From assembly GCA_002238665.1 (NCBI GenBank), contig MPMU01000011.1, forward strand, positions 1 through 44,384: DNA of 44,384 nt. The letters run 5' to 3'. Below, piece after piece: positions 16,258 to 44,384 of the stretch (positions are counted from its first letter, which is position 1; the number at the start of each line of letters is the position of its first letter). The stretch is from Gammaproteobacteria bacterium bin55. GTDB lineage: Bacteria; Pseudomonadota; Gammaproteobacteria; Pseudomonadales; Azotimanducaceae. The position numbers and the translations under genes are program-made. Below the pieces are notes generated by a model. That model had not been told where the DNA came from, did not search any database, and saw nothing but the letters and a program-made list of their open reading frames with translations.

Positions 16258-17562
16258 TTACCTAACCCTGGTGTAACTCTCGTCTCCTGGAAGACATTCT
16301 CCAGCGTCTGGCACATCCTTGTTCTGTTGTTTCATCAACTTTTGTCGATGCGCTGAAGCCTTAAGATCATCTTGCACATTCCGTTTGATGTGGTCCATTA
16401 AAGAGAGAATGGCTCGTTCATAAAAACGTTTCGACACGTCAGGCTTCCACAAATATCCCAAATCACTGAGTTGCTGAATGTCGGATTTTGAATCTGAGAT
16501 TCCTTCACCTGAAAGTCGCGTTACAAGCTCCGATTCCAGCCATTGCTCCTTTTCATCAAATAGCTTCGCAATGTGAAATGCACTTTCGAGTAGGTTCTTT
16601 TTACTGATTTCTTCATACCGCTCTTCGTACATGAAGTCTTTGCCGGTATGAAACTGTGTCGTAGCTTTTTCCCATTTTTCGGCATTGATTACGAGTGATT
16701 CGTCTTCTACACAATTTCGCCATAGAGCTCGACCGTACAACTGAATGAAAAATGGGTAGTTATGACATTCACGTACCATTTCATCAATGACATGTTCAGG
16801 TGGTGATTCAACTTTGTTTTTCGTAAATGGCGTACCAATGGCTCGCCTACTCTCCTCTGTTGTTAATGTTCTTAGTGTATGTACAGTGTATCTAGTCGCA
16901 AAAGAGGCATTGCATTCCCTAACTGCACGCCTTAATTCAGGAGTACCTGATAATATGGTGGTAACAGGTATTTTGTCACCCGTGGTCTGCTGCAAGCATT
17001 GAAGTAGATTTCTCAATACTTGGGGGTCCATAGTATGTGATTCATCGATACATAGAATAGTTGGTCTGTATTTGCCTATCAACTCTATGACCTGAGCAAA
17101 ATCTTCCACATCATGTTCATACGTAGTCTTCTTTGATAGATTTCCGCTAGCTTTGAAAGCTAGTTGAAAACCTAATAGTTCAGACTTTGTTCCAGCATCG
17201 ATTCCGCCACTTCCCTGTTTTGTAACTGATGTTTCAACTTCTAGGTTGTTCCCCGTTATTTTTCTGTAGAGGGTTTTTAGATTCAGTTCTGACGGAGTAA
17301 GAATGATTGTCTGAACATCTTTGACATTTTCCTCTCTGGCAAACTGGCTGGAATGTTCCTTTAGGTATCTCAAAAGGGTCGTTTTACCATGTCCTCGAGG
17401 TGCATAAAGCACACGCAATGTTGGTCTGGGTGTTTTTTTACCGACATCTCGGATCAACTCTTTAAACTCATTAATCTCTTCTTCCCTACCTTCAAATACA
17501 TCAGGAAGCTCCCCAGGGTCTGGTGTAAACGGATTGTCGAGAGTTGTGCCTTTACCTATCAC
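16258..17562 (-). CDS. AAA ATPase of unknown function, relative of the mnmE-island ATPases
   Basis: A 434-aa protein with an ORC/STAND-like front, FEGREEEINEFKELI (residues 23-37), Walker A APRGHGKTTL (54-63), Walker B TILCIDESHT (168-177) and SGTPELR as sensor-1 region. It has no membrane segment. The C-terminal part (from about 290) is helical and may be a winged helix. The order of motifs (FEGR, Walker A, LC/LVDESH or Q, then an NYPFFIQLY-type block) resembles the two ATPases at 39811-42871, so all three seem to belong to one broad family. It stands alone, divergent from a PhyH gene. Function unknown. Confidence 0.78.
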   Translation of the reverse strand: MIGKGTTLDNPFTPDPGELPDVFEGREEEINEFKELIRDVGKKTPRPTLRVLYAPRGHGKTTLLRYLKEHSSQFAREENVKDVQTIILTPSELNLKTLYRKITGNNLEVETSVTKQGSGGIDAGTKSELLGFQLAFKASGNLSKKTTYEHDVEDFAQVIELIGKYRPTILCIDESHTMDPQVLRNLLQCLQQTTGDKIPVTTILSGTPELRRAVRECNASFATRYTVHTLRTLTTEESRRAIGTPFTKNKVESPPEHVIDEMVRECHNYPFFIQLYGRALWRNCVEDESLVINAEKWEKATTQFHTGKDFMYEERYEEISKKNLLESAFHIAKLFDEKEQWLESELVTRLSGEGISDSKSDIQQLSDLGYLWKPDVSKRFYERAILSLMDHIKRNVQDDLKASAHRQKLMKQQNKDVPDAGECLPGDESYTRVR

Positions 17563-24859: not shown

Positions 24860-25828
24860 ATGAGCAAAATCCATCGACTGTATGAAACCCACAAAATTCT
24901 GAAAGACCGACGCACACCTATTTCGCTGGCAGAACTCGTCAGCCGTGTTGGCGTGGACGACAGAAGCATACACCGCTATCTTGCCGATCTGAAAGACAAC
25001 TATGGAGCTGTCATTGAGTCTAAGAACGGAGGGTATGTAATGAAAAAACCTTCCGAGATAATCAACGGCATGGGGTTGTGGCTTTCAGCTCGATCCATGG
25101 AATGGTTCCTGTTTTTTCATGTCGTAGCCCAACGAATGTCGGATTCAGCCCCCCAGTTGATTCCTGATGAAGTGAAGCAAAATATCGATAAGTACTTCAG
25201 GAAGAGGGGGAAAACGCGTTCCTTTCCCACTGATAAAGTCCGAATTCTCGCATCTCACAGAAGAAAAGGCGAACACACCCATCTTGTTTCAATTGTCTCT
25301 GCGATCCTAGATCAGGAGGTTCTTCTTATTGAGTACGAGTCTCGGTCTCAAGGAGCACAATTAAAGAGGCCTGTCTCGGTTCAACGATTGGTGTATTACA
25401 AAGATCACTGGTACATAGATGGTTACGACCACGAATCAAACGAACTGCGCGTTTTCTCTGTAGACCGCATACGAAAAATAGAAGAAGTAGAGGAAAATTC
25501 TCTGACATTCGAGAGCATTGATGAGGATGAATTAGAGCAGGTTTTACGTAGTGGTTATGGAATCTTCTCTGGTAAAGAGATCACTTGCGCGAAACTTCGT
25601 TTTTCCCAAAAAATCGCACCCTGGATTCGAGACGAAACATGGCACAGCAACCAGAAAAGTGTCGACGCACTGGATGGAAGTTTCATTCTCGAAGTTCCAT
25701 ATTCTGATTCAACTGAGTTAATCGGAGAAATCCTCCGATACGGTCCAGAAGTTGAAGTACTCGAACCATCTGAGTTAAGGTCTGAAGTTCAAAACAGGAT
25801 TCGGGGGGCACTAGAGCTCTATACCTGA
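24860..25828 (+). CDS. WYL-domain transcriptional regulator
   Basis: A 322-aa protein. Residues 1-70 form a winged helix-turn-helix (ISLAELVSRVGVDDRSIHRY). The middle and end form the WYL sensor domain, with VQRLVYYKDHWYIDGYDHES (residues 173 onward) and VFSVDRIRKIEEV. WYL regulators bind nucleotide- or nucleic-acid-like ligands and often control defence or DNA-damage genes. ATG 24860 has AAGGAACAC upstream. The 3' end of this gene is duplicated downstream at 26860-26949. Its target may be the 180-aa gene that follows (inference from neighbourhood). Confidence 0.93.
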   Translation: MSKIHRLYETHKILKDRRTPISLAELVSRVGVDDRSIHRYLADLKDNYGAVIESKNGGYVMKKPSEIINGMGLWLSARSMEWFLFFHVVAQRMSDSAPQLIPDEVKQNIDKYFRKRGKTRSFPTDKVRILASHRRKGEHTHLVSIVSAILDQEVLLIEYESRSQGAQLKRPVSVQRLVYYKDHWYIDGYDHESNELRVFSVDRIRKIEEVEENSLTFESIDEDELEQVLRSGYGIFSGKEITCAKLRFSQKIAPWIRDETWHSNQKSVDALDGSFILEVPYSDSTELIGEILRYGPEVEVLEPSELRSEVQNRIRGALELYT

Positions 25829-25898
25829 AGACGTTTCAAATGCAGTCGAGAGGGGACTCATCAAGAGATTTTTGGCAAATTTTCAAGAAAAACGAGCT

Positions 25899-25919
25899 CA
25901 CTGACAGGTTTTGTCAGTG
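25899..25919 (+). promoter_or_regulatory. Hairpin ahead of first 180-aa gene
   Basis: An 8-bp perfect stem, CACTGACA / TGTCAGTG, with loop GGTTT. It is kept as a 7-bp stem in the second unit at 27022-27040. There is no T-run, so a regulatory RNA structure or operator is as likely as a terminator of the WYL transcript. Confidence 0.5.
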
Positions 25920-25948
25920 TCGATAGCTAGCCTTCCATTTGATGGGGG

Positions 25949-25977
25949 GTAGCAGTATCGTCCTTACCTACTGCTAC
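25949..25977 (+). promoter_or_regulatory. Second hairpin in the leader of the first 180-aa gene
   Basis: A 9-bp perfect stem, GTAGCAGTA / TACTGCTAC, with an 11-base loop, 37 bases before the start codon. The right arm is lost in the second copy (27069 onward), so the two leaders differ in structure. Confidence 0.45.
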
Positions 25978-26014
25978 TGACCCTGTCTAACTGAAAATTA
26001 CTGGAGGAACGCCA

Positions 26015-26557
26015 TTGTTTCTACTTGACCAGTGCATGGATGAAGCAGTAACTGACATTCACAGTCGACACACAGAAGAATATTCCCTATACGAGCTGAT
26101 GGAATACCTGTACACACAACATCTCGCACACCGATATAACTATCGGTCTGAGAGCATTCGGATAAGAGCACGTTCTGAAACAAGACCCTTGATACCTCCT
26201 CGTTCAGACGACGAAGCTCAACTTAGGAGAATCCTGAATTACGTTGAGTGTGGTTTGTCAATGAAACCGATTGAGAAAGGATATGTGCCATATGAGTTTC
26301 TGGTTTTTGAAGCAAACATGGCTCACTACAGCCCTATCAGAACCAGGAACCTCACACCTGTCTTAACCGAACTGGTTCTTTTAGAACTCATGCATCGCCG
26401 ACACCTGAAACGAATACAGCTCAACTTGAGGTTCGAGTCTCGTATGCCCAGGTATAGTTCGGTGGCTCAACGTTTTATTGAAGGCAATGATGAAGGTTTC
26501 ATTCTGTTGTGGGAGCGTCGCTACCATACAAATGGCATTTCAGTGAGAGTCTACTGA
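26015..26557 (+). CDS. Unrecognised 180-aa protein, copy 1
   Basis: A 180-aa soluble, charged protein that starts at TTG 26015 (FLLDQCMDEAVTDIHSR) behind a strong GGAGG at 26003. The second copy has ATG at the same place, so the weaker start is a derived change in this copy or an improved one in the other. Notable blocks: YSLYELMEYLYTQHLAHRYN, LRRILNYVECGLSMKPIEK, PYEFLVFEA and a C-terminal ILLWERRYHTNG. No family, signal peptide or membrane segment is recognised. It lies behind a WYL regulator and may be its target. Confidence 0.7.
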   Translation: MFLLDQCMDEAVTDIHSRHTEEYSLYELMEYLYTQHLAHRYNYRSESIRIRARSETRPLIPPRSDDEAQLRRILNYVECGLSMKPIEKGYVPYEFLVFEANMAHYSPIRTRNLTPVLTELVLLELMHRRHLKRIQLNLRFESRMPRYSSVAQRFIEGNDEGFILLWERRYHTNGISVRVY

Positions 26558-26663
26558 CTAAGCTCACTTCCAATAGGACTCGTCTTTACCCAGCATCCAA
26601 CACAGTTGACTTGACTAGAAAGCATCACAACCAAGCCAATAAAATCCCATGAGCTCGTCTCTC

Positions 26664-26820
26664 TTAAGATGCTCGGTTCTTTAGTTCTTCAACTGGTTTC
26701 TGTCGAGCCGTTGCATCTGCTAGCATCGTAGCGGCTCGCGACAAATCCACATCAGCCGCCTGATCCGACATCGCTTTTCAGCATCTTTTTGCGACTCTAA
26801 CACCGCCTCGTCGAAGTCGG
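26664..26820 (-). pseudogene. atpC 3'-end fragment
   Basis: Matches the last 160 bases of the intact atpC (27782 to about 27941), including the stop TAA at 26664-26666. Scattered substitutions and single-base indels (e.g. CGCTTTTCAGC for CGCTTTTTCAGC) break the frame. It has no start and is a by-product of the tandem duplication. Confidence 0.9.
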
Positions 26821-26859
26821 TGGTATATTAAACGACAATCAATATGAGAACGCCATCTA

Positions 26860-26949
26860 TACGGTCCAGAAGTTGAAGTACTCAAACCAACTGAGTTACG
26901 GTCTGAAGTTCAAAACAGGGTTCGGCGAGCACTAGAGCTCGATAGCTGA
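26860..26949 (+). pseudogene. WYL-regulator 3'-end fragment
   Basis: Matches 25739-25828 of the intact WYL gene, including the stop TGA at 26947-26949. It encodes about the last 30 residues (GPEVEVLEPSELRS in the intact gene). It has no start and is a by-product of the tandem duplication. Confidence 0.9.
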
Positions 26950-27132
26950 AGACATTTCAAATGCAGTCAAGAAGGGGACTCATCAAGAAATTATTGGCGA
27001 ATGTACAAGAAAAACGAGCTCACTGACAGGTTTTGTCAGTTTCGATAGCTAGCTTTAGGTTTGATAGGGGTAGCAGTATCGTCCCTATCTATTACGTCCC
27101 CTGTTTTACTGACCATTATTGGAGGAACGCAA

Positions 27133-27675
27133 ATGTTTCTACTTGACCAGTGCATGGATGAAGCAGTAACTGACATTCACAGTCGAAACACAAAAGGATA
27201 TTCCCTATACGAACTGATGGAATACCTATACACCCAACATCTCGTACATCGATATAACTATCTGTCAGAGAGCATTCGGACACATGAACGCTTTGAAACA
27301 AGACCCTTAATGTCTACTCGTCCAGACGACGAAGCTCACCTTAGGAGAATCCTAGATTACGTTGAGTGTGGTTTATCAAGGAAACCGATTGAGAAAGGAC
27401 ATGTGCCATATGAGTTTTTGGTTTTTGAAGCAACCATGGCTTACTACAGACCCCTCAGAATCAGGAGCCTCACATCTGTCATAACCGAGCTGGTTCTTTT
27501 GGAACTCATGTATCGCCGAGACCTGGAACCAATCCAGCTCGAGCTGAGGCGCGAGGCTCGTATGTCCCGCTATACTTTTGTGACTGACGATTTTATTGCA
27601 GGCCACGATGAAGATTTCATTCTGCTGTGGGAGCGTCGCTACCGTACAAATGGTCTTTCTGCGGTGGTCTACTGA
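27133..27675 (+). CDS. Unrecognised 180-aa protein, copy 2
   Basis: The frame opens at 27061, but ATG 27133 behind GGAGGA (27121) matches copy 1, giving 180 aa. About three quarters of the residues match copy 1 by eye, and both ends (MFLLDQCMDEAVTDIHSR; ILLWERRYRTNG) are nearly fixed. Both copies stay open over their full length with differences spread along it, which argues that both are kept by selection. Function is not recognised. It is convergent with atpC, 106 bp away. Confidence 0.72.
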   Translation: MFLLDQCMDEAVTDIHSRNTKGYSLYELMEYLYTQHLVHRYNYLSESIRTHERFETRPLMSTRPDDEAHLRRILDYVECGLSRKPIEKGHVPYEFLVFEATMAYYRPLRIRSLTSVITELVLLELMYRRDLEPIQLELRREARMSRYTFVTDDFIAGHDEDFILLWERRYRTNGLSAVVY

Positions 27676-27781
27676 CTCAGCTCATTCGCAATAGAAATCG
27701 TCTTTACCCTGTATCCAACGCAGTTGATTTAACTAGAAAGCCTCAGAACCAACCCAATAAAATCCTATGGGCTCGTCTTTC

Positions 27782-28204
27782 TTAAGATCTTCGCTTTTTT
27801 AGTTCTTCAACTGTTTTCTGTCGAGCCGTTGCATCTGCCAGCATCGCAGCGGCTCGCGACAAATCCACATCAGCCGCCTGATCCGACATCGCTTTTTCAG
27901 CATCTTCTTGCGCTTTTAACACCGCCGCCTCATCGAGGTCGGCCGCATGCTCCGCGGCATCCGCAAGGATAGTCACTACGTGCGGTTGAACTTCCAAAAA
28001 TCCACCTGAGACGTAGAAAGGCTCCTCACTTCCATCTTCAAATTTGAGGCGCACGGTACAAGGATTTAAACCTGTTAACAGTGGGGTATGCCCAGGCATA
28101 ATGCCTAATTCCCCTAAGATGCCCGTCGCAACAACCATCGTAACATCACCAGAAAAAATCTCCTTTTCTGCGCTTACGATGTCACATCGCATTGAACTCG
28201 CCAT
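27782..28204 (-). CDS. atpC: ATP synthase F1 subunit epsilon
   Basis: A 140-aa rotor-stalk subunit, which couples rotation and can inhibit ATP hydrolysis. Residues 1-85 form the beta-sandwich (CDIVSAEKEIFSGDV, GELGIMPGHTPLLTGL), and the rest is the two-helix end. It is last in the operon, two bases after atpD. Its 3' end is copied at 26664-26820. Confidence 0.96.
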   Translation of the reverse strand: MASSMRCDIVSAEKEIFSGDVTMVVATGILGELGIMPGHTPLLTGLNPCTVRLKFEDGSEEPFYVSGGFLEVQPHVVTILADAAEHAADLDEAAVLKAQEDAEKAMSDQAADVDLSRAAAMLADATARQKTVEELKKRRS

Positions 28205-37078: not shown

Positions 37079-38974
37079 CTAAGCGATCTTTCGTGGTCGC
37101 TCCTTCTGGTGTCGTTTTATGTGAACCGTCAGTAAAGACAACGCCGCTGGTGTCATACCTGGAATTCGAGATGCTTGCGATATCGTTTGCGGTCGGACGT
37201 TACTTAATTTCTCACATAGTTCGTTTGAGAGTCCTTCCATAGTCGTGTATTGCAGAGAGTCCGGTATTTTTATTTGCCTACGTTCGTCCGCAATTTCAAT
37301 TTCTTTGTCCTGTCGCCGAATATAGCCTTCGTACTTGATCTCAACACACGCCTGCGCAAGTGCATCAGAGTCCAGGGAATCAAACCACCCGGTCTTGATT
37401 AAATCCGCGGCATGCACATTGGGACGCTTCATAAATTCAACCAAATTCGTGTCTTTAGTAATTGATTCGCCCGTCACTTGCGCGGCTAGAGCTGCATTTA
37501 CTGAATTGACCGGCAAATTTAGGGTGGAGATCTTACGTTGACATTCTTCCACATTCTTAACACGAGTTTGGAAAGTCAGCCATCTCTGGTCGTCAATCAA
37601 TCCCACCTGTCGCCCTATTGGTGTCAGGCGATAATCTGCATTGTCCTGACGCAATCTAAGACGATACTCCGCTCTACTCGTGAACATTCTGTATGGCTCG
37701 TCCGTACCTAAGGTGATAAGGTCATCCACCAAAACCCCCGCATAGGCTTCATGTCGAGCAGGGCACCAACTTGATTTGTGTTGTACTTTGAGCGCTGCAT
37801 TAATTCCCGCTATTAACCCCTGAATACCTGCTTCTTCGTATCCAGTCGTACCGTTGATCTGGCCGGCAAAGAACAGATTCTCTATGACTTGAGTTTCTAG
37901 TGAGCTCTGTAGGTCGCGTGGATCGAAAAAGTCATACTCGATGGCATATCCTGCGCGTGTGATATGCGCATTCTCAAACCCACGAATACTCCGGACAAAT
38001 CGCACTTGTGTTGAATACGGCAGGCTTGTTGAAATACCATTGGGATAAAGTTCCGTTGTACCTAATCCTTCAGGCTCTACAAAAATCTGATGGGAGTCAC
38101 GATCAGCGAATCTCACTACCTTGTCTTCAATAGAAGGACAGTAGCGAGGTCCTATGCCTTCAATCTTTCCTGAATACATCGGCGATTCACCAAGTCCGGC
38201 ACGAATCAGTTCGTGTGTTTTAGAGTTGGTGCGCGTGATATGACACGGGACTTGCTCTGGATGATGACTGCGATCACCAAGAAACGACATAACAGGTACT
38301 GGGACGTCGCCTGGTTGCTCGTCCATTACACTGAAATCTACGGTTTTACCATCAATTCGTGGGGGCGTACCGGTCTTCAATCGACCTACTCGTAGAGGTA
38401 AGGCCCGAAGCCGTTCAGCGAGAGCTATCGAGGCTGAGTCTCCCGCTCTTCCACCGCTTTGGGCTTGTAGACCAATAAAAATTCGCCCGCCAAGAAATGT
38501 ACCCGTGGTCATGATCACGGTTTCCGCCTCCATGATCATTCCAGTTCGGGTAACGACACCCTTTACTCTATCTTTTTCGACAACCAAATCAACTACCGTA
38601 TCTTGCCATAGTTTCAGACCGGCTTGATTTTCAACCTGTCTTCGTATGGCGGCTTTATAAAGCGCGCGATCCGCTTGTGCTCTCGTGGCCTGAACTGCAG
38701 GTCCTTTGGTTGCGTTTAATGTTCGAAAATGGATTCCCGCTTCATCAGCGGCCAACGCCATAGCGCCGCCTAATGCGTCGATTTCTCTCGCAAGATGACT
38801 CTTACCAATCCCACCGATTGCAGGATTACAAGACATCTGACCGATCGTCTCAATGGATTGGGTCAGTAAACAGGTATTGACTCCCATCCTTGCCGCACCG
38901 AGAGCAGCTTCGACTCCAGCATGACCTCCTCCGACGACCAAAACATCGAACTTTTCTGGATAGGCAAATGACAT
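37079..38974 (-). CDS. mnmG: tRNA U34 carboxymethylaminomethyl-modification enzyme MnmG
   Basis: A 631-aa FAD enzyme that works with MnmE on wobble U34. The Rossmann motif [19 protein letters not shown] (residues 13-31), [20 protein letters not shown], and [10 protein letters not shown] are all standard. It is normally next to mnmE in gammaproteobacteria or separated from it by little; here about 4.5 kb of accessory DNA lies between. Confidence 0.98.
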
Positions 38975-39111
38975 AAAAGGGGGTTAGCTAGATGAAGAAT
39001 TGATTCAGGTACGTGCGTATTTTAATACTGTAATTATATATACCAAATTTATTGTGGTACTTTTGCGATGAATCAAGGCTCAGACGACATTCGGAATATG
39101 TATTTTCATGC
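38975..39111. other. mnmG upstream region
   Basis: An A+T-rich spacer of 137 bp (for example TTTTAATACTGTAATTATAT at 39020-39039), likely to hold the mnmG promoter on the minus strand. No oriC-type DnaA-box cluster is seen. Confidence 0.4.
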
Positions 39112-39505
39112 GACCCTCGATATTCTGTCTAGATGGGGTCCGTCTTTAAAGATCGCTAGAATCCTTAGAGAGGCTACAACGTCTGTTGTTCTGCTCTTTG
39201 GTGATCACTTACCAATACAGAATTTAGAAAAAATCTCGCCTATTAGATCGACGGTAGTGGTTGAGCCTATTACTTTACCTAGCCAATCGAAGGCTTTCAG
39301 CGGCGATTTCTCTATGTTGAGGACGTAAATTGTCTGACGCTGACTATAGATGCGATTGAGCATTCCAGAGAGATCTTAAGTGTCTGGGTCTACCTCAAAA
39401 TGCATCGTCCCTTGGCTCATGGCAAAACCCTTCGCGTATCCCTGTTTTGAGCTCGCGTAAAGCCACTTCTTTTAAAGTGCTAATCCCGACCGAACCGTCC
39501 CACGA
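39112..39505. repeat. Imperfect direct repeat of the mnmE 3' end, left copy
   Basis: About 390 bases align with 43413-43815, at about 80 percent identity by eye. The repeat includes about 90 bases downstream of the mnmE stop and about 300 bases of the coding 3' end. The block between the two repeats is the island. Confidence 0.9.
39204..39505 (-). pseudogene. mnmE 3'-end fragment
   Basis: The minus strand reads GKVIGSTTTVDLIGEIFSKF and ends CIGK with TGA at 39204-39206, matching the C-terminus of the intact mnmE. Upstream, indels break the frame: LRELKTGIR and GRPRHL homologues are present but a TAA interrupts between them. It is not expressed as a protein. It may be the original 3' end left behind when the island entered, or a copy carried in with the island. 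Confidence 0.92.
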
Positions 39506-39605
39506 TACGGGGCGTAAACCGGCCAGTACCGCCAGATTACACAGGGAATCAGCTCAACACCGCACCGCACTCGAGTGTGCGACCATTGCCCTCTCTCAAG
39601 CGAAG

Positions 39606-39720
39606 CCGTATCCTGAAGCAATGACCTGACGAGAATCTCCGGTCCGGTGTCCTTTTGACCGACTGATGCCATGAGCCGAGAGCGAACCTCGGCCCTGAAT
39701 TTATCCGTTAGGTCAAACCC
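39606..39720 (-). pseudogene. vsr 5'-end fragment, second copy
   Basis: The minus strand encodes LTDKFRAEVRSRLMASVGQ and then KDTGPEILVRSLL, the N-terminal signature of the very-short-patch repair endonuclease Vsr (RS..M..V..KDT.PE..VR.LL). The frame ends soon after, and the nuclease core is missing. It starts without a clear ATG; a stop lies 7 codons upstream. Vsr normally mends T:G mismatches left by Dcm-type methylation. Confidence 0.8.
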
Positions 39721-39810
39721 AAGACGAAGCTACAGATATTCGCAACAAAAAGTCAAAGGCAACGTAAAGGGCGATTTCACATGTCCGTCGCCAGATGCGC
39801 CGCCTGCGTC

Positions 39811-41106
39811 TTACTCCCTCATTCTTTCTCTCAGAATTTCTTTAGTTCGATCTGCATCCATATCATTCGCTAGAAATGTCTTAAGTGATGGAATGGGGAA
39901 ACTATAGGTTCTATCAAGATTTCGGTCAAGAACGCCTTTGTGAACACATAAATTGACAAACGCCAGCAACTCTTTGCTGTTGGAGAAACAATCAAGGAAG
40001 GCAACCTTAATATCCTTGTAATTAAACACCTTTTTGTCCTTTTGAAGCTTTGCTAGATTCAATACTGCGTCACTAAGATCAGGCTCGATAAATTCCAACT
40101 GCTCTTGGTAATACGTAATGCGATCATCATTGCCTAAATCCAAAACTTTATTCAAATCAAAATGATCTTTCTTTTTTCTCTGTGCGTCTGAAATTTCATT
40201 TATGAAGTGGTGCAAACAACAATGCAGATGGCGCGGCCATCTGTCGCTGGCGTATTCCAATTGATGGACTATAAAGTTCAGATTTTTATCAGTGAATAGT
40301 TTTGTTACGTTCAGCTTTTCGAATGTAGAAAGACATACCTTCCTGCCTTCAACTTCCGTAAATGTTCCTAAATTAAACCGCTTTGGTAATAATCGAGTAG
40401 GGCCTACGTCCTTTAAGCGTTCTCGTGTATCACTTAAACCAGCGAACACTGAGATGATTCTCAATTCGGCGATATTCATCGCACCATGTAGGTTGACCAG
40501 AAGCGTATTGTATTTGCCACTATTAGGTTGAATCCGTTGCGACTCATCAACCAACAGTAGAAATATGGGGTTATCGCCCGGATGCAAAGATTGTCGAATC
40601 ACGTTCCAGATTCTGCCTGGTGATTCCCTTACTCTTTGATCCAGTGCTGGTAAATGAGACTGTATTCCACCTTCTAATTTAAGCACCGATAAGTTAAATG
40701 TTCCTTTGCCATCTTCGCTATAGGATTTGGATATCGACTCCAAATTACCTCTGCCATGAACAAGAAATTTCTCTAGGAACAATACAGGATCATTGAACTG
40801 TTCTATTTCTATCAAGATAGGAATGATGTCGCTACTGCTAGGCATGTCCAATGCATCTTGCTTAATTTGATGAAGCAAGCTGGTTTTACCCGCACCAGGT
40901 GCTCCCTGAACAACGACTGTACTGCAGGTGGGCTCTGCCGTCTCACGAACCACAGTAATCCGCTTTTCGATGTGATTCCTTACGTCGTCACGACCCTCAA
41001 ACGCAATCGGGGAACTGCGTTCGTTTAGGCTTAAATAGGAGATTAGTCGTTGTTGTTCATCGTCGCTAAGACGAGACCGAAACTTGATTTCCATTGGTGT
41101 TGACAT
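39811..41106 (-). CDS. AAA ATPase of the mnmE island, copy 2
   Basis: A 431-aa protein from ATG 41106 (an upstream GTG at 41169 would add 21 residues). It has FEGRDDVRNHIEK (36-48), Walker A QGAPGAGKTSLL (67-78), Walker B FLLLVDESQ (182-190) and FAGLSDT (221-227). After this the sequence is unlike copy 1 except for DRWPRHLHCCLHHF and the end YSFPIPSLKTFL, which looks like a winged helix. No membrane segment. Such ATP-binding proteins with a WP.H.H motif are widespread and uncharacterised. It lies between two vsr fragments. It may be a sensor or remodeller in the lost modification system (inference). Confidence 0.85.
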   Translation of the reverse strand: MSTPMEIKFRSRLSDDEQQRLISYLSLNERSSPIAFEGRDDVRNHIEKRITVVRETAEPTCSTVVVQGAPGAGKTSLLHQIKQDALDMPSSSDIIPILIEIEQFNDPVLFLEKFLVHGRGNLESISKSYSEDGKGTFNLSVLKLEGGIQSHLPALDQRVRESPGRIWNVIRQSLHPGDNPIFLLLVDESQRIQPNSGKYNTLLVNLHGAMNIAELRIISVFAGLSDTRERLKDVGPTRLLPKRFNLGTFTEVEGRKVCLSTFEKLNVTKLFTDKNLNFIVHQLEYASDRWPRHLHCCLHHFINEISDAQRKKKDHFDLNKVLDLGNDDRITYYQEQLEFIEPDLSDAVLNLAKLQKDKKVFNYKDIKVAFLDCFSNSKELLAFVNLCVHKGVLDRNLDRTYSFPIPSLKTFLANDMDADRTKEILRERMRE

Positions 41107-41227
41107 AACACTCTTGATTGTAGAAGATGCTAAGTCGCTATAGTCATTAAATGTGCACAGCCCTCTCACACTGCGCCTGGTCGGCTGATGACCTTTGGGG
41201 TAAAAAACAATTCAACTCTATGTTTCG

Positions 41228-41340
41228 GTTTCCTGAAGCAATCGCTTGACGATCATCTCCGGTCCCGTGTCCTTTTGACTGACTGATGGAGTGGTCCGGG
41301 TGCGAAGCTCGGCCGTGAATTTGTCCGTTCGGTCAACCCC
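41228..41340 (-). pseudogene. vsr 5'-end fragment, first copy
   Basis: The minus strand encodes VDRTDKFTAELRTRTTPSVS and then QKDTGPEMIVKRLLQ, the Vsr N-terminal pattern, and stops after a further four residues. It is homologous to 39606-39720 and truncated at the same point. In front of it the frame end IAKSPFKLPLIFYGEYL, stop, is also shared with the second copy. Confidence 0.8.
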
Positions 41341-41497
41341 AAGATGATGCTACAGATATTCGCCATAAAAGATCAAAGGCAACTTAAAGGGCGATTTCGC
41401 AATGACTTCCCAAACAATCGATCTAAATGGAGTGGCTTATCGAGATAGCGCTTGCTTGGACGACACAAAGGGCGAAAGAAGGATACACATGGCCAAT

Positions 41498-42871
41498 CTA
41501 ATCGAAACTCCCACGTTTAAACGATTTCATATGACCGTCACCAAGAGCTCCGCCCCCACCACCCGTATCCCCATCAAATCGAGTTCGTAACAACTCCTTC
41601 GTAATCTCGGGATTCCTTCCAGTCGCTAAAAAAGTATGCAAGGAAGGTATCGCGAATCCGTAATTACCATTTTCAAATTTCCGGAATATGCCATTGTGTA
41701 CACACGCGTCAATCATTCCGTTGACATCATTACGATTCGCACCAGAGGCATTCTGAAAAGAATCAAACACAGCACCCGTTTCCATTTCAGCGCCTATGTC
41801 ATACTTCAAGGCTAGTGCGTCTAAATGCTTATGTAAATCGTCATAGCCTTTAATTCGTTTCAAACGTCTAAAGTAATAACCAATTCGTTCGTCATGGCCT
41901 TCATCCAGTACTTTATCCATGTCTATGTGTGTCCTCCCTTCTTTCTGACACAACACTATTTCAGCGACCAACGCGTGTAAATAGCTATGGATGTGCCGCG
42001 GCCACACATCTCCGGCAATGCTAATCTGATGAACTAGATTGGCTTTATCTTCTGGATAAAACAATTTTTTTAAACCTAGGGCGTTGAGCGAAGACAATAC
42101 GACGCGAGCGCCTTCATCCGGCGAAAGTGAATCTAGTATGAAATCCTCACAAGCCTCCCGTGTAATACCAACCTGCGACAACGCGTCATCAGTATCACTT
42201 AAACCTGCAAACACTGGAATGATCCTCAATCCCGCGAGATTTATCGCTCCGTGTATATTGGCCAGAAGTGTGTTGGTATCTCTATCATTAGGTTTGACTC
42301 GTTGGGACTCGTCCACCAACAAAATAAATATGGGGTCATCACCCGGATATAGAGATTGCCGAATTACATTCCAAATCCTTCCCGGAGACTCCCTTACCCT
42401 TGTATCTAGTGCTGGTAAATGAGCCTGGATTCCTCCTTCGAATTTAAGCACAGACAAGTTAAATGTACCTTTGCCATCTTCGCTATAGGATTTAGATATC
42501 GACTCGTAATTCACTTTGCCATGATCTAGAAATTTCTCCAGCAACAACACTGGGTCATTGAACTGTTCTATTTCTATCAAGATGGGAATAATGTCGCCGC
42601 TGTTAGGCATGTTCAATACGTCATGCTTAATTTGTTGGAGCAAGCTCGTTTTACCCGCACCTGGAGCGCCTTGGACAACGACAGTACTACAAATAGGTTC
42701 CGGCGACTCTCGAACTGCCGCAATCTGCTCTTCAATATGCTTTCTAACATCGTGACGACCTTCGAAGGCAATAGGTTGCATGCGCTCGTTTCGTCTTAAA
42801 TAAGAAACTAAGCGTTTTTGTTCATCGTCATTAAGACGCGACTGGAACTTGATTTCCATTGGTATTGACAT
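41498..42871 (-). CDS. AAA ATPase of the mnmE island, copy 1
   Basis: A 457-aa protein from ATG 42871 (an upstream TTG at 42952 would add 27 residues). Its front half, with QGAPGAGKTSLL, FILLVDESQ and FAGLSDT, is nearly the same as copy 2. The back half differs, keeping GDVWPRHIHSYLHALV and YGFAIPSLHTFLA. It ends with a glycine-rich tail (DGDTGGGGGALGDGHMKSFK) that copy 2 lacks, perhaps because the old stop was lost. It directly follows the broken methyltransferase gene and precedes a vsr fragment. Function unknown. Confidence 0.85.
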   Translation of the reverse strand: MSIPMEIKFQSRLNDDEQKRLVSYLRRNERMQPIAFEGRHDVRKHIEEQIAAVRESPEPICSTVVVQGAPGAGKTSLLQQIKHDVLNMPNSGDIIPILIEIEQFNDPVLLLEKFLDHGKVNYESISKSYSEDGKGTFNLSVLKFEGGIQAHLPALDTRVRESPGRIWNVIRQSLYPGDDPIFILLVDESQRVKPNDRDTNTLLANIHGAINLAGLRIIPVFAGLSDTDDALSQVGITREACEDFILDSLSPDEGARVVLSSLNALGLKKLFYPEDKANLVHQISIAGDVWPRHIHSYLHALVAEIVLCQKEGRTHIDMDKVLDEGHDERIGYYFRRLKRIKGYDDLHKHLDALALKYDIGAEMETGAVFDSFQNASGANRNDVNGMIDACVHNGIFRKFENGNYGFAIPSLHTFLATGRNPEITKELLRTRFDGDTGGGGGALGDGHMKSFKRGSFD

Positions 42872-42985
42872 AACACTCTTGATTTTAGAAGATGCTAAGT
42901 CGCTGGATTCACTAAATGCGTACAGCCCTCTCAAACTCCGACTGGAACCCAAATTTTAGGAGTGCTCGCTGACACCGCTCGTTCA

Positions 42986-43360
42986 TCAACGATATCGATT
43001 CGAACGCGACTTTTCCTCCAGCACGCTGAGAATTGAGTTCCCATGTAACTCTGTAAATCTCGGTGGTACGGCCTCACCGATCATTCGCCGGACGAAATGC
43101 GTTTCGAGGCGGTCGCAGGGATTCGACTGCCATCGAAATTCATTAGGGATGGTCTGTAAATGGCAACACTCGCGAGCGCTTAGCACTCGATTTTCTACTG
43201 GATGAATTGTCGTTGAACTACCGATGCTTCCGTTCGCCATTGTTACGGCAGGCGCCGGTGAGTACGGATTCATTCGTCGATAGATTGAAGCTCGAAATCC
43301 TTTTATTAACCAAAAACTGCCATCTGTTTGTTGACCAAGCGTAAATTCGAAGAGTCGAAG
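42986..43360 (-). pseudogene. C5-cytosine DNA methyltransferase, 3' end only
   Basis: The frame is open from 43360 to the stop at 42986 (124 codons) with no proper start. Recognisable: TDGSFWLIKGFR, RRMNPYSPAPAVT (the target-domain end), NRVLSARECCHLQTIPNEF (motif IX) and RRMIGEAVPPRFTELHG (motif X). The catalytic PC motif and SAM motif would be on the missing 5' part. The break at about 43363 lies within 50 bases of the mnmE repeat, so the missing part was lost at the island edge. Confidence 0.9.
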
Positions 43361-43412
43361 CTATTCAGTCTCAATAAGGTCTCGGGGGGTATTGGGAACT
43401 GTATGTTCCAAA

Positions 43413-43815
43413 GATCCTCGACATTCTGTGTAGATGACTCTACCCTTTAGGATCGCTAAGCATCCTTAGAGAGGCTACGATATCTGTTGTTCTGCTGTTC
43501 GGTAATCACTTACCAATACAGAATTTAGAAAAAATCTCGCCTAATAGATCGTCGGTAGTGGTCGAGCCTATGACTTCACCTAGTGAAGCATGCGCCAATC
43601 GGAGACTTTCGGCGGCGATTTCTCCATGTTGATGGCGTAAATTGTCTGACGCAGACTGTAGATGCGATTGGGCGTTCCTTAGAGACTTTAAGTGCCTGGG
43701 CCTCCCTGCAAATGCATCGTCCCTTGGCTCATAGCCACAACGTTTGCGTATCACTGTTTTGAGCTCGCGTAGACCCACTCCTTTTAAAGCGCTAACTCCG
43801 ACTGAACCGTCGCTA
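43413..43815. repeat. Imperfect direct repeat of the mnmE 3' end, right copy
   Basis: The functional copy, partner of 39112-39505. It includes the intact mnmE stop region at 43506. Confidence 0.9.
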
Positions 43816-44384
43816 CGAGGGCCAAATTCCCCATTCGATAGATCACACTTGTTGCGTACTACGATGGCTTTAGATGGTGGTGATTCCTCGCCAAATTGGG
43901 TATCGTCCACTACCCACAAAACCAAATCACTTCCAGTTAATGCAGACTCCGTCCGCAAAATACCTTCTGCCTCAATCGGATCGTGGGTTTCATGTAAACC
44001 AGCTGTGTCAATCAAGGTAACTGGCAACCCTTCAAGTGAAATGGTGGCATCCAAGGTGTCTCTCGTAGTACCTGCGATATGGGTAACTATCGCTCGATCC
44101 TCATTGAGTAACGCATTGAACAACGATGACTTTCCAACATTTGGTGCTCCTGCGATTACCAACTGATAGCCCTGTTGCAACACCATTCCTTGTTCGCATC
44201 TTTCCATGAGAGTCTTCAGCGAATCCGTGACGTCAGCGATTCGATCTTTGAGGTCGCTGTCTTCTAAAAAGTCGATGTCTTCATCTACAAAATCAATAGC
44301 ACTTTCAACGAAGACACGCACATCCAACAGCTTTCGGTCTACTTCAAGTACTTGCTCCGAAAAACCACCTTGCAATGATCTCAG
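43506..44384 (-). CDS. mnmE: tRNA modification GTPase MnmE (5' part outside window)
   Basis: The C-terminal 292 residues of MnmE, which works with MnmG on U34 of tRNA. The G domain is complete: G1 GAPNVGKSSLFNAL, G2 region AGTTRDTLD, G3 DTAGLH, G4 NKCDLS. The helical end closes with FSKFCIGK, whose Cys is conserved. The frame is open to the right edge. The 3' end (TTCTGTATTGGTAAG) is a well-known integration site for genomic islands of the SGI1 type. Confidence 0.97.
   Translation of the reverse strand: MRSLQGGFSEQVLEVDRKLLDVRVFVESAIDFVDEDIDFLEDSDLKDRIADVTDSLKTLMERCEQGMVLQQGYQLVIAGAPNVGKSSLFNALLNEDRAIVTHIAGTTRDTLDATISLEGLPVTLIDTAGLHETHDPIEAEGILRTESALTGSDLVLWVVDDTQFGEESPPSKAIVVRNKCDLSNGEFGPRSDGSVGVSALKGVGLRELKTVIRKRCGYEPRDDAFAGRPRHLKSLRNAQSHLQSASDNLRHQHGEIAAESLRLAHASLGEVIGSTTTDDLLGEIFSKFCIGK

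Follow-up and report, generated by a model that had tools for sequence, protein, structure and literature searches.

A segment between two copies of the mnmE 3' end in Gammaproteobacteria bacterium bin55: a probable insertion with long target duplication

We analyzed a 44,384-nucleotide stretch of DNA (hereafter the window; contig MPMU01000011.1 of Gammaproteobacteria bacterium bin55, assembly GCA_002238665.1) in which a segment of accessory genes lies between mnmE and mnmG and is bordered by two direct copies of the mnmE 3' end. The locus is probably an insertion with long target duplication, which is a known kind of event. As we infer the order of events and their mechanism, a segment with pieces of a DNA-methylation/mismatch-repair type system (a dcm end, an AAA+ ATPase and a vsr start) would have entered the gap between mnmE and mnmG, leaving behind a duplicate of the final ~310 bases of mnmE together with about 115 downstream bases. 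The copy beside the insert keeps mnmE working and the copy beside mnmG has decayed; the ATPase-vsr unit would have been doubled in tandem either afterwards or beforehand.

Comparison of the window with itself by blastn identified direct repeats at 39089-39499 and 43391-43811 that were 81.8% identical over 423 columns (E value of 4.7e-115). A repeat search of the window detected the same pair as ungapped blocks with 85% identity at 39282-39499 and 90% at 39158-39282. Both results agreed with a preliminary description, made from the sequence alone, that two direct copies of the mnmE 3' end surround the accessory genes, and the divergence of about a fifth given there was likewise confirmed. The coding parts of the two copies were 86.6% identical, and the longest exact match between left and right copy was 39 bases. 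The edge of the repeat inside mnmE was sharp, near 43815 and 39505. Identity in windows of 40 columns ranged from 72 to 98% until past the mnmE stop codon, after which the likeness tapered off across about 115 bases. The right copy is part of an open mnmE frame that reaches the end of the contig and, judged by this reading frame, it is the functional end of mnmE; the N-terminal half beyond the contig end was not found elsewhere in the 88%-complete bin. Two in-frame stops and an 11-base deletion mark the left copy as a decayed pseudogene, a point that the preliminary description had passed over. The 40 differences between the copies were distributed over codon positions 1, 2 and 3 as 14/8/18, giving a third-position share of 0.45 as compared to a yardstick of 0.46 for decay, the latter being our own rough estimate. 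This is about the pattern that would be expected if one copy had drifted freely and the other had changed mainly at silent sites.

We then compared the locus with relatives of the same genus. In 16 of the 17 relatives, no more than about 1.5 kb separated mnmE from the start of mnmG, with mnmG homologues near mnmE being 62-81% identical to that of the window; a search of 10 kb beside mnmE in G006 did not detect mnmG. None of the 17 had a second mnmE end when the mnmE end plus 1.5 kb downstream was compared with itself at the DNA level, a comparison that a very decayed copy could escape, and none was detected at the protein level either in the 10-kb stretches searched in G003 and G006, the two relatives with mnmG farther away. 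Two mnmE ends in relatives without the insert had been proposed as the observation that would speak against an insertion, and the single mnmE end in all 17 upholds the view of the region as an insertion with an extra mnmE end. The ATPase was detected at an E value of 1e-10 or better in only one of 37 relatives, and with 28% identity there, indicating that the cargo is not ancestral to the locus. Since mnmG lies near mnmE in nearly all relatives, no second mnmE end was found in them and the ATPase is so rare, this lineage most likely acquired the segment. The related question of which copy is nearer to the local lineage was uninformative because this part of MnmE is only 48-56% identical at the amino acid level in relatives and the left copy has decayed.

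Along the minus strand, the insert starts with a dcm 3' fragment, which precedes ATPase A and then ATPase B, each of the two being followed by a vsr 5' fragment (Table 1). The DNA likeness of the dcm fragment to a longer dcm-like gene of contig C135 extended to position 43329. On C135 (L043, 1695-5259), that gene has 478 codons and lies directly behind a large gene that by eye looks like a GHKL-type ATPase. The two vsr fragments were 84% identical over 174 bases, with one at the end of each ATPase unit. Copy B matched positions 1-32 of 74 of the Vsr profile (PF03852) with 20.8 bits, below the cut-off of 27, and was the sole match to this profile in the genome; copy A fell below the search threshold. 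As for restriction-modification cargo, the dcm 3' fragment and the vsr 5' fragments alone remain beside the two ATPases. Because the outer ends of the dcm and vsr pieces are missing, the insert looks as if it were a random excerpt from a methylation-type locus.

Table 1. Positions and supporting evidence for the features at the mnmE-mnmG locus of the window.
Feature	Position	Strand	Evidence
Left repeat: decayed mnmE 3' end plus about 115 bases downstream	39089..39505	-	Repeat search, blastn, alignment
Right repeat: working mnmE 3' end (43506-43815) plus about 115 bases downstream	43391..43815	-	Repeat search, blastn, codon comparison
mnmE, truncated by contig end, 292 codons present	43506..44384	-	PF12631, 4.1e-39; 56% to nearest same-genus MnmE
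dcm (C5-cytosine methyltransferase) 3' fragment, last 95 codons	42986..43273	-	PF00145, 1.5e-6; match to contig C135
AAA+ ATPase gene A, 484 aa	41498..42952	-	Open reading frame; Pfam scan; alignment; AlphaFold model
vsr 5' fragment copy A and its upstream stretch	41228..41401	-	Repeat of copy B; reading frame with QKDTGPEMIVKRLL
AAA+ ATPase gene B, 452 aa	39811..41169	-	Open reading frame; AAA_16/NACHT below cut-off; aligned with 8 paralogues
vsr 5' fragment copy B and its upstream stretch	39608..39781	-	84% to copy A; Vsr profile
mnmG (gidA), native downstream neighbour of mnmE	37079..38974	-	Open reading frame; named by eye and by place in relatives

The preliminary description had pointed to the 3' end of mnmE (trmE) as an attachment site of SGI1-type islands. 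Such an island, put in by a tyrosine recombinase at the final bases of mnmE, would fit the location of the insert, which begins about 115 bases past the mnmE stop, and the 15-base core is indeed in both copies (43523-43509 and 39222-39208). However, the stretch TTCTGTATTGGTAAG is present in both copies because it codes for the end of MnmE, and this end is conserved: among 18 relatives, 17 from the genus and one more from the family, 16 have FCIGK and the other two FCVGK. Homology ran through the core, extending for about 290 bases on its upstream side and about 115 on its downstream side, and the sharp drop in identity at a short core that had been suggested as a sign of attachment was not seen in the alignment of the repeats. 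SGI1 variants are described as integrating at the trmE 3' end, and dusA elements related to the SGI1 family as having 21-bp repeats at their ends, in the text available to us from one report (PMC8409611). The insert shares with SGI1-family islands at trmE/mnmE its location; it differs in having a gene end as its repeat in place of short attachment (att) repeats and in its gene content. No integrase was found among the open reading frames of the insert that were read or scanned for families, so that the earlier statement of no integrase in the window holds for the insert, the family scan not having covered every open reading frame in the rest of the window. Likewise, no mobilisation gene was recognised by eye in the insert. 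We rejected SGI1-type integration as extremely improbable, since homology continues past the core and the search of the insert yielded no integrase.

Insertion with long target duplication was reportedly treated by Nobusato et al. in 2000 and Furuta et al. in 2010, as related in papers that refer to them, and to our knowledge its mechanism is not settled. The phenomenon is described as having been found by comparing two Helicobacter pylori strains and as often tied to restriction-modification genes, in the portion of the source consulted (PMC1643837). In a second source, consulted to the same extent, some restriction-modification systems are stated to insert with duplications of the target that are long and variable, with sizes in the order of 100 bp, and single component genes of these systems to appear mobile at times (PMC3874152). 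We filed the mnmE locus here: the ATPase of the segment went undetected in 36 of 37 relatives and was only distantly similar in the other, the repeat spans 423 columns and no second copy of the target was found in the 17 relatives. An accessory segment between long variable target repeats, methylation-related cargo and an insert in which no transposase was found are all in common with the known cases. Unlike in those cases, the repeats are about 420 bases as compared to the order of 100, strongly decayed and older, and the cargo consists of broken pieces and ATPases in place of a whole restriction-modification pair. As to whether the copies started out identical, from a target doubled within one cell, the 14/8/18 pattern at mnmE fits decay alone; two of nine such repeat pairs, described below, exceeded decay at P <0.02.

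Three routes could have led to such a duplication at mnmE. As our tentative first choice, the segment may have arrived already joined to an mnmE end and entered through a single homologous crossover within that gene. True duplication of the target, by a staggered break or template switching, is a somewhat more doubtful possibility, and a tandem duplication followed by loss, taken up below, is less likely still. Additive horizontal transfer by homologous recombination in flanking genes also places new genes beside a gene common to donor and recipient; it differs, as far as described in the part of the report seen, in that one gene end is left in two copies here (PMC11375855). The transposed genes of Arabidopsis are likewise non-transposon genes between direct repeats of host sequence, for which circle excision and re-integration have been proposed; that case, to judge from the excerpted text, concerns a plant genome with mostly shorter repeats (PMC2869330).

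We next looked for similar scars elsewhere, that is, for direct repeats of at least 60 bases, in 59 stretches of this genome (695 kb, window's contig left out, contigs picked by number and not at random) and in 60 stretches (1,194 kb) of eight same-genus relatives, mostly contigs already examined and also not drawn at random. The pairs were sorted by eye from the resulting table, and gene names such as aroB, TPR, parB, aceF and methyltransferase were assigned on visual inspection and not from family scans. The 17 pairs of the genome sample comprised six gene-end pairs, two intergenic pairs, one adjacent tandem repeat (L161) and eight cases of paralogous genes or repeats within a gene. Each of the six gene-end pairs (aroB, a TPR gene and four others) consisted of a whole gene and, close to the end of that gene, a fragment of it set apart by other DNA. 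For instance, at L193:3606-5808 about 1.2 kb of other DNA separates an aroB-like gene from a 500-base fragment that repeats its 3' end at 80% identity, the same anatomy as that of mnmE but without the ATPase. In the relatives, three of 18 pairs were of the gene-fragment kind (parB in G016, a gene start at L251 in G015 and an aceF fragment in G009) and the other 15 were paralogous genes. The aceF fragment is internal, ends before the gene end and surrounds an ATPase-like gene of a different kind. No gene-fragment scar was found in the sampled stretches of G006 (400 kb) and G014 (200 kb). Gene-end scars thus occurred at 8.6 per Mb in this genome as compared to 2.5 in the relatives (6 vs 3, P = 0.068), and at 11.5 vs 2.5 per Mb when the intergenic pairs were included (8 vs 3, P = 0.017), which gives only a hint that this genome may be richer in scars than its relatives. 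The ATPase family of the window was absent from the first 40 stretches of the genome sample, and the genome search listed no contig of the other 19. The candidate explanation that insertion is specific to this ATPase was weakened by the scars around other cargo in this background sample and by the three in relatives.

Codon positions were compared for nine scars. The aceF copies of G009 were 92.6% identical with differences of 4/2/17, and those of L181 differed by 8/9/29; the third-position excess over the decay yardstick had P values of 0.006 and 0.015, respectively (uncorrected, nine scars tested). The other seven, mnmE included, had no such excess at 0.05, and L221 and L222 had none at all. 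The copies of aceF and L181 probably diverged as working genes in two lineages before meeting, in which case one copy of each would have arrived with the insert. The working aceF copy was 82, 81 and 81% identical to those of G016, G015 and G017, and the fragment 80, 79 and 78%; the working copy is slightly closer to the relatives, which does not tell which copy came in.

We also examined 85 loci of the ATPase family for flanking repeats, with the window not included and with repeats excluded that were themselves ATPase sequence, be it in full or just at the edge (L083, L090, L096, L101 and others). Direct non-ATPase repeats on both sides of the ATPase were found at seven loci. By eye, the repeat is the start of a neighbouring gene in three of them (L040, L127 and L133); the other four are L085, where the repeat is 3.4 kb long with copies 9.5 kb apart, L089, L112 and L137. 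On contig C156 (L040:4348-8711), the ATPase lies between repeats of the neighbouring gene's start, 324 bases at 97.5% and 110 bases at 94.5% identity, and in the copy farther from the gene the two parts are about 1.4 kb apart around a gene that by eye is methyltransferase-like. This scar is young. At L133 (5626-5703 and 7200-7277) and L127 (5697-5765 and 7629-7698), both from one Bacteroidetes bin, the repeats of 70-78 bases appear by eye to be the first codons of the gene downstream of the ATPase, repeated on its far side. In one Flavobacteriaceae genome, a 1.5-kb ATPase unit (L149:8432-9919) is absent at the matching place of a sister genome (contig C22 of G044, near 56291-56301).

These loci bear on the explanation that the ATPase gene itself is the mobile unit and makes duplications on insertion. 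The 15 family matches in this genome (two inside the window), the at least 73 loci in other genomes, the seven loci with flanking repeats and the present/absent unit at L149 all point in this direction. Nevertheless, scars also flank cargo without this ATPase, L149 lacks a long duplication, and neither shared ends nor terminal repeats were detected beyond short matches. Alignments of the sequences up- and downstream of ATPase copies had no shared ends among the matches listed; five ATPase units of two sister genomes had the gene and near flanks in common, and at the one unit searched for terminal inverted repeats the inverted matches were of up to 9 bases at most. A 250-base dispersed stretch near three ATPase loci was considered as an element end and discarded, having merely four matches in the genome and none in the window. 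We therefore regard a self-mobile ATPase gene as very unlikely. A broader form of the idea, in which Orc1/Cdc6- and STAND-like ATPases would be a mobile family across unrelated bacteria that leaves long copies of host gene ends, with mnmE as one landing site among many, appears quite unlikely.

A purely local origin of the repeats could be envisaged, in which an ordinary insertion was followed by a head-to-tail doubling of the mnmE end with the insert and then by loss of the second insert. Tandem units are common near these ATPases: besides the ATPase-vsr unit of the window, contig C41 has two units about 2 kb apart, and L083, L096 and L145 have tandem ATPase stretches at 95-99.7% identity. 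However, this explanation needs an additional loss of the second insert at every scar, and the about 110 bases between the left copy (39089) and the start of mnmG (38974) hold no cargo open reading frame, making it unlikely in our view. It is also conceivable that the left copy came from another strain or species and was misjoined in the metagenome bin, which is fragmented into 183 contigs and 88% complete and whose contig ends within mnmE. With a longest shared exact stretch of 39 bases, the repeat is unlikely to have confused the assembly; moreover, the left copy is a stop-containing fragment and not an allele, and similar scars were also found at further loci of this genome and in genomes other than this one. 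An assembly artefact is accordingly highly improbable.

Several observations weigh against an insertion with long target duplication. No near relative showed the empty site directly, there being no close strain pair among the genomes compared, and the codon positions at mnmE do not separate the arrival of an outside mnmE end from a duplication made locally. Several overlapping events are indicated by the gene fragments and tandem units in the insert. The excess of scars over relatives is modest by either count, in stretches not randomly drawn, and scars also surround non-methylation cargo, so that the tie to such cargo is loose. Furthermore, 78 of the 85 ATPase loci had no flanking repeat of the counted kind, and around the L149 unit, the sole present/absent sister comparison, there was no long duplication and no terminal repeats were seen. 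If insertion with long target duplication is nonetheless what occurred at mnmE, an island-like feature beside a classic island site would be explained without any integrase, and long gene-end repeats should not be called att sites. Should such scars be general, they would be countable fossils of gene gain, and the question of long target duplication could be tested by strain comparison.

ATPases A and B were 69% identical over the first 310 codons and 36% afterwards. In the first part, the differences at codon positions 1, 2 and 3 were 68/50/131, which suggests that both have been maintained as proteins. Their Pfam matches (AAA_16/NACHT and similar) were all below the cut-off. An AlphaFold model of ATPase A had a middling confidence (predicted local distance difference test score, pLDDT, of 70) and was nearest to Cdc6/Orc1 proteins and two archaeal Walker ATPases in a Foldseek search (2qby, 2qen and 2fna), with STAND-like matches too, at low template modeling (TM) scores of 0.1-0.4. 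Like these proteins, it is predicted to have an AAA+ core with a largely helical C-terminal part behind it; the sub-threshold Pfam matches, the pLDDT and the TM-scores set it apart from them. No PDB chain matched the profile of the ATPase family by sequence at an E value of 0.01. Solo ATPases of the archaeal Walker type are often multi-copy in archaea. Many of the other-genome loci of the family are in unrelated metagenome-assembled genomes; among the matches listed, ten were in the Bacteroidetes bin CAR4_bin_2, eight in each of two others and seven in a Rhodothermales bin. From their names, we presume many of these bins to be of marine-sponge origin. When nine family members were compared with anti-phage profiles, five matched mads_8 (best 8e-5), two IetA (best 1.4e-6) and two AbiO (best 4.2e-5), and ATPase A matched none of the three at 0.001. 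An identity as one of these known anti-phage ATPases was set aside, as none of the profiles clearly matched the whole family.

A second AAA ATPase family, AAA_22/TniB-like by Pfam scan, is encoded at 16258-17562 of the window. The gene at L181 (2016-3224), which sits inside another gene-end scar, resembles it by eye. A dispersed repeat of about 70-150 bases was detected at L222:12959-13118, with similar copies in L199, L223, L184, L178, L234 and L191 (seven copies in the part compared). Lastly, positions 25725-27942 of the window contain a 1.1-kb tandem duplication at 86% identity with two similar open reading frames (26015-26557 and 27061-27675).

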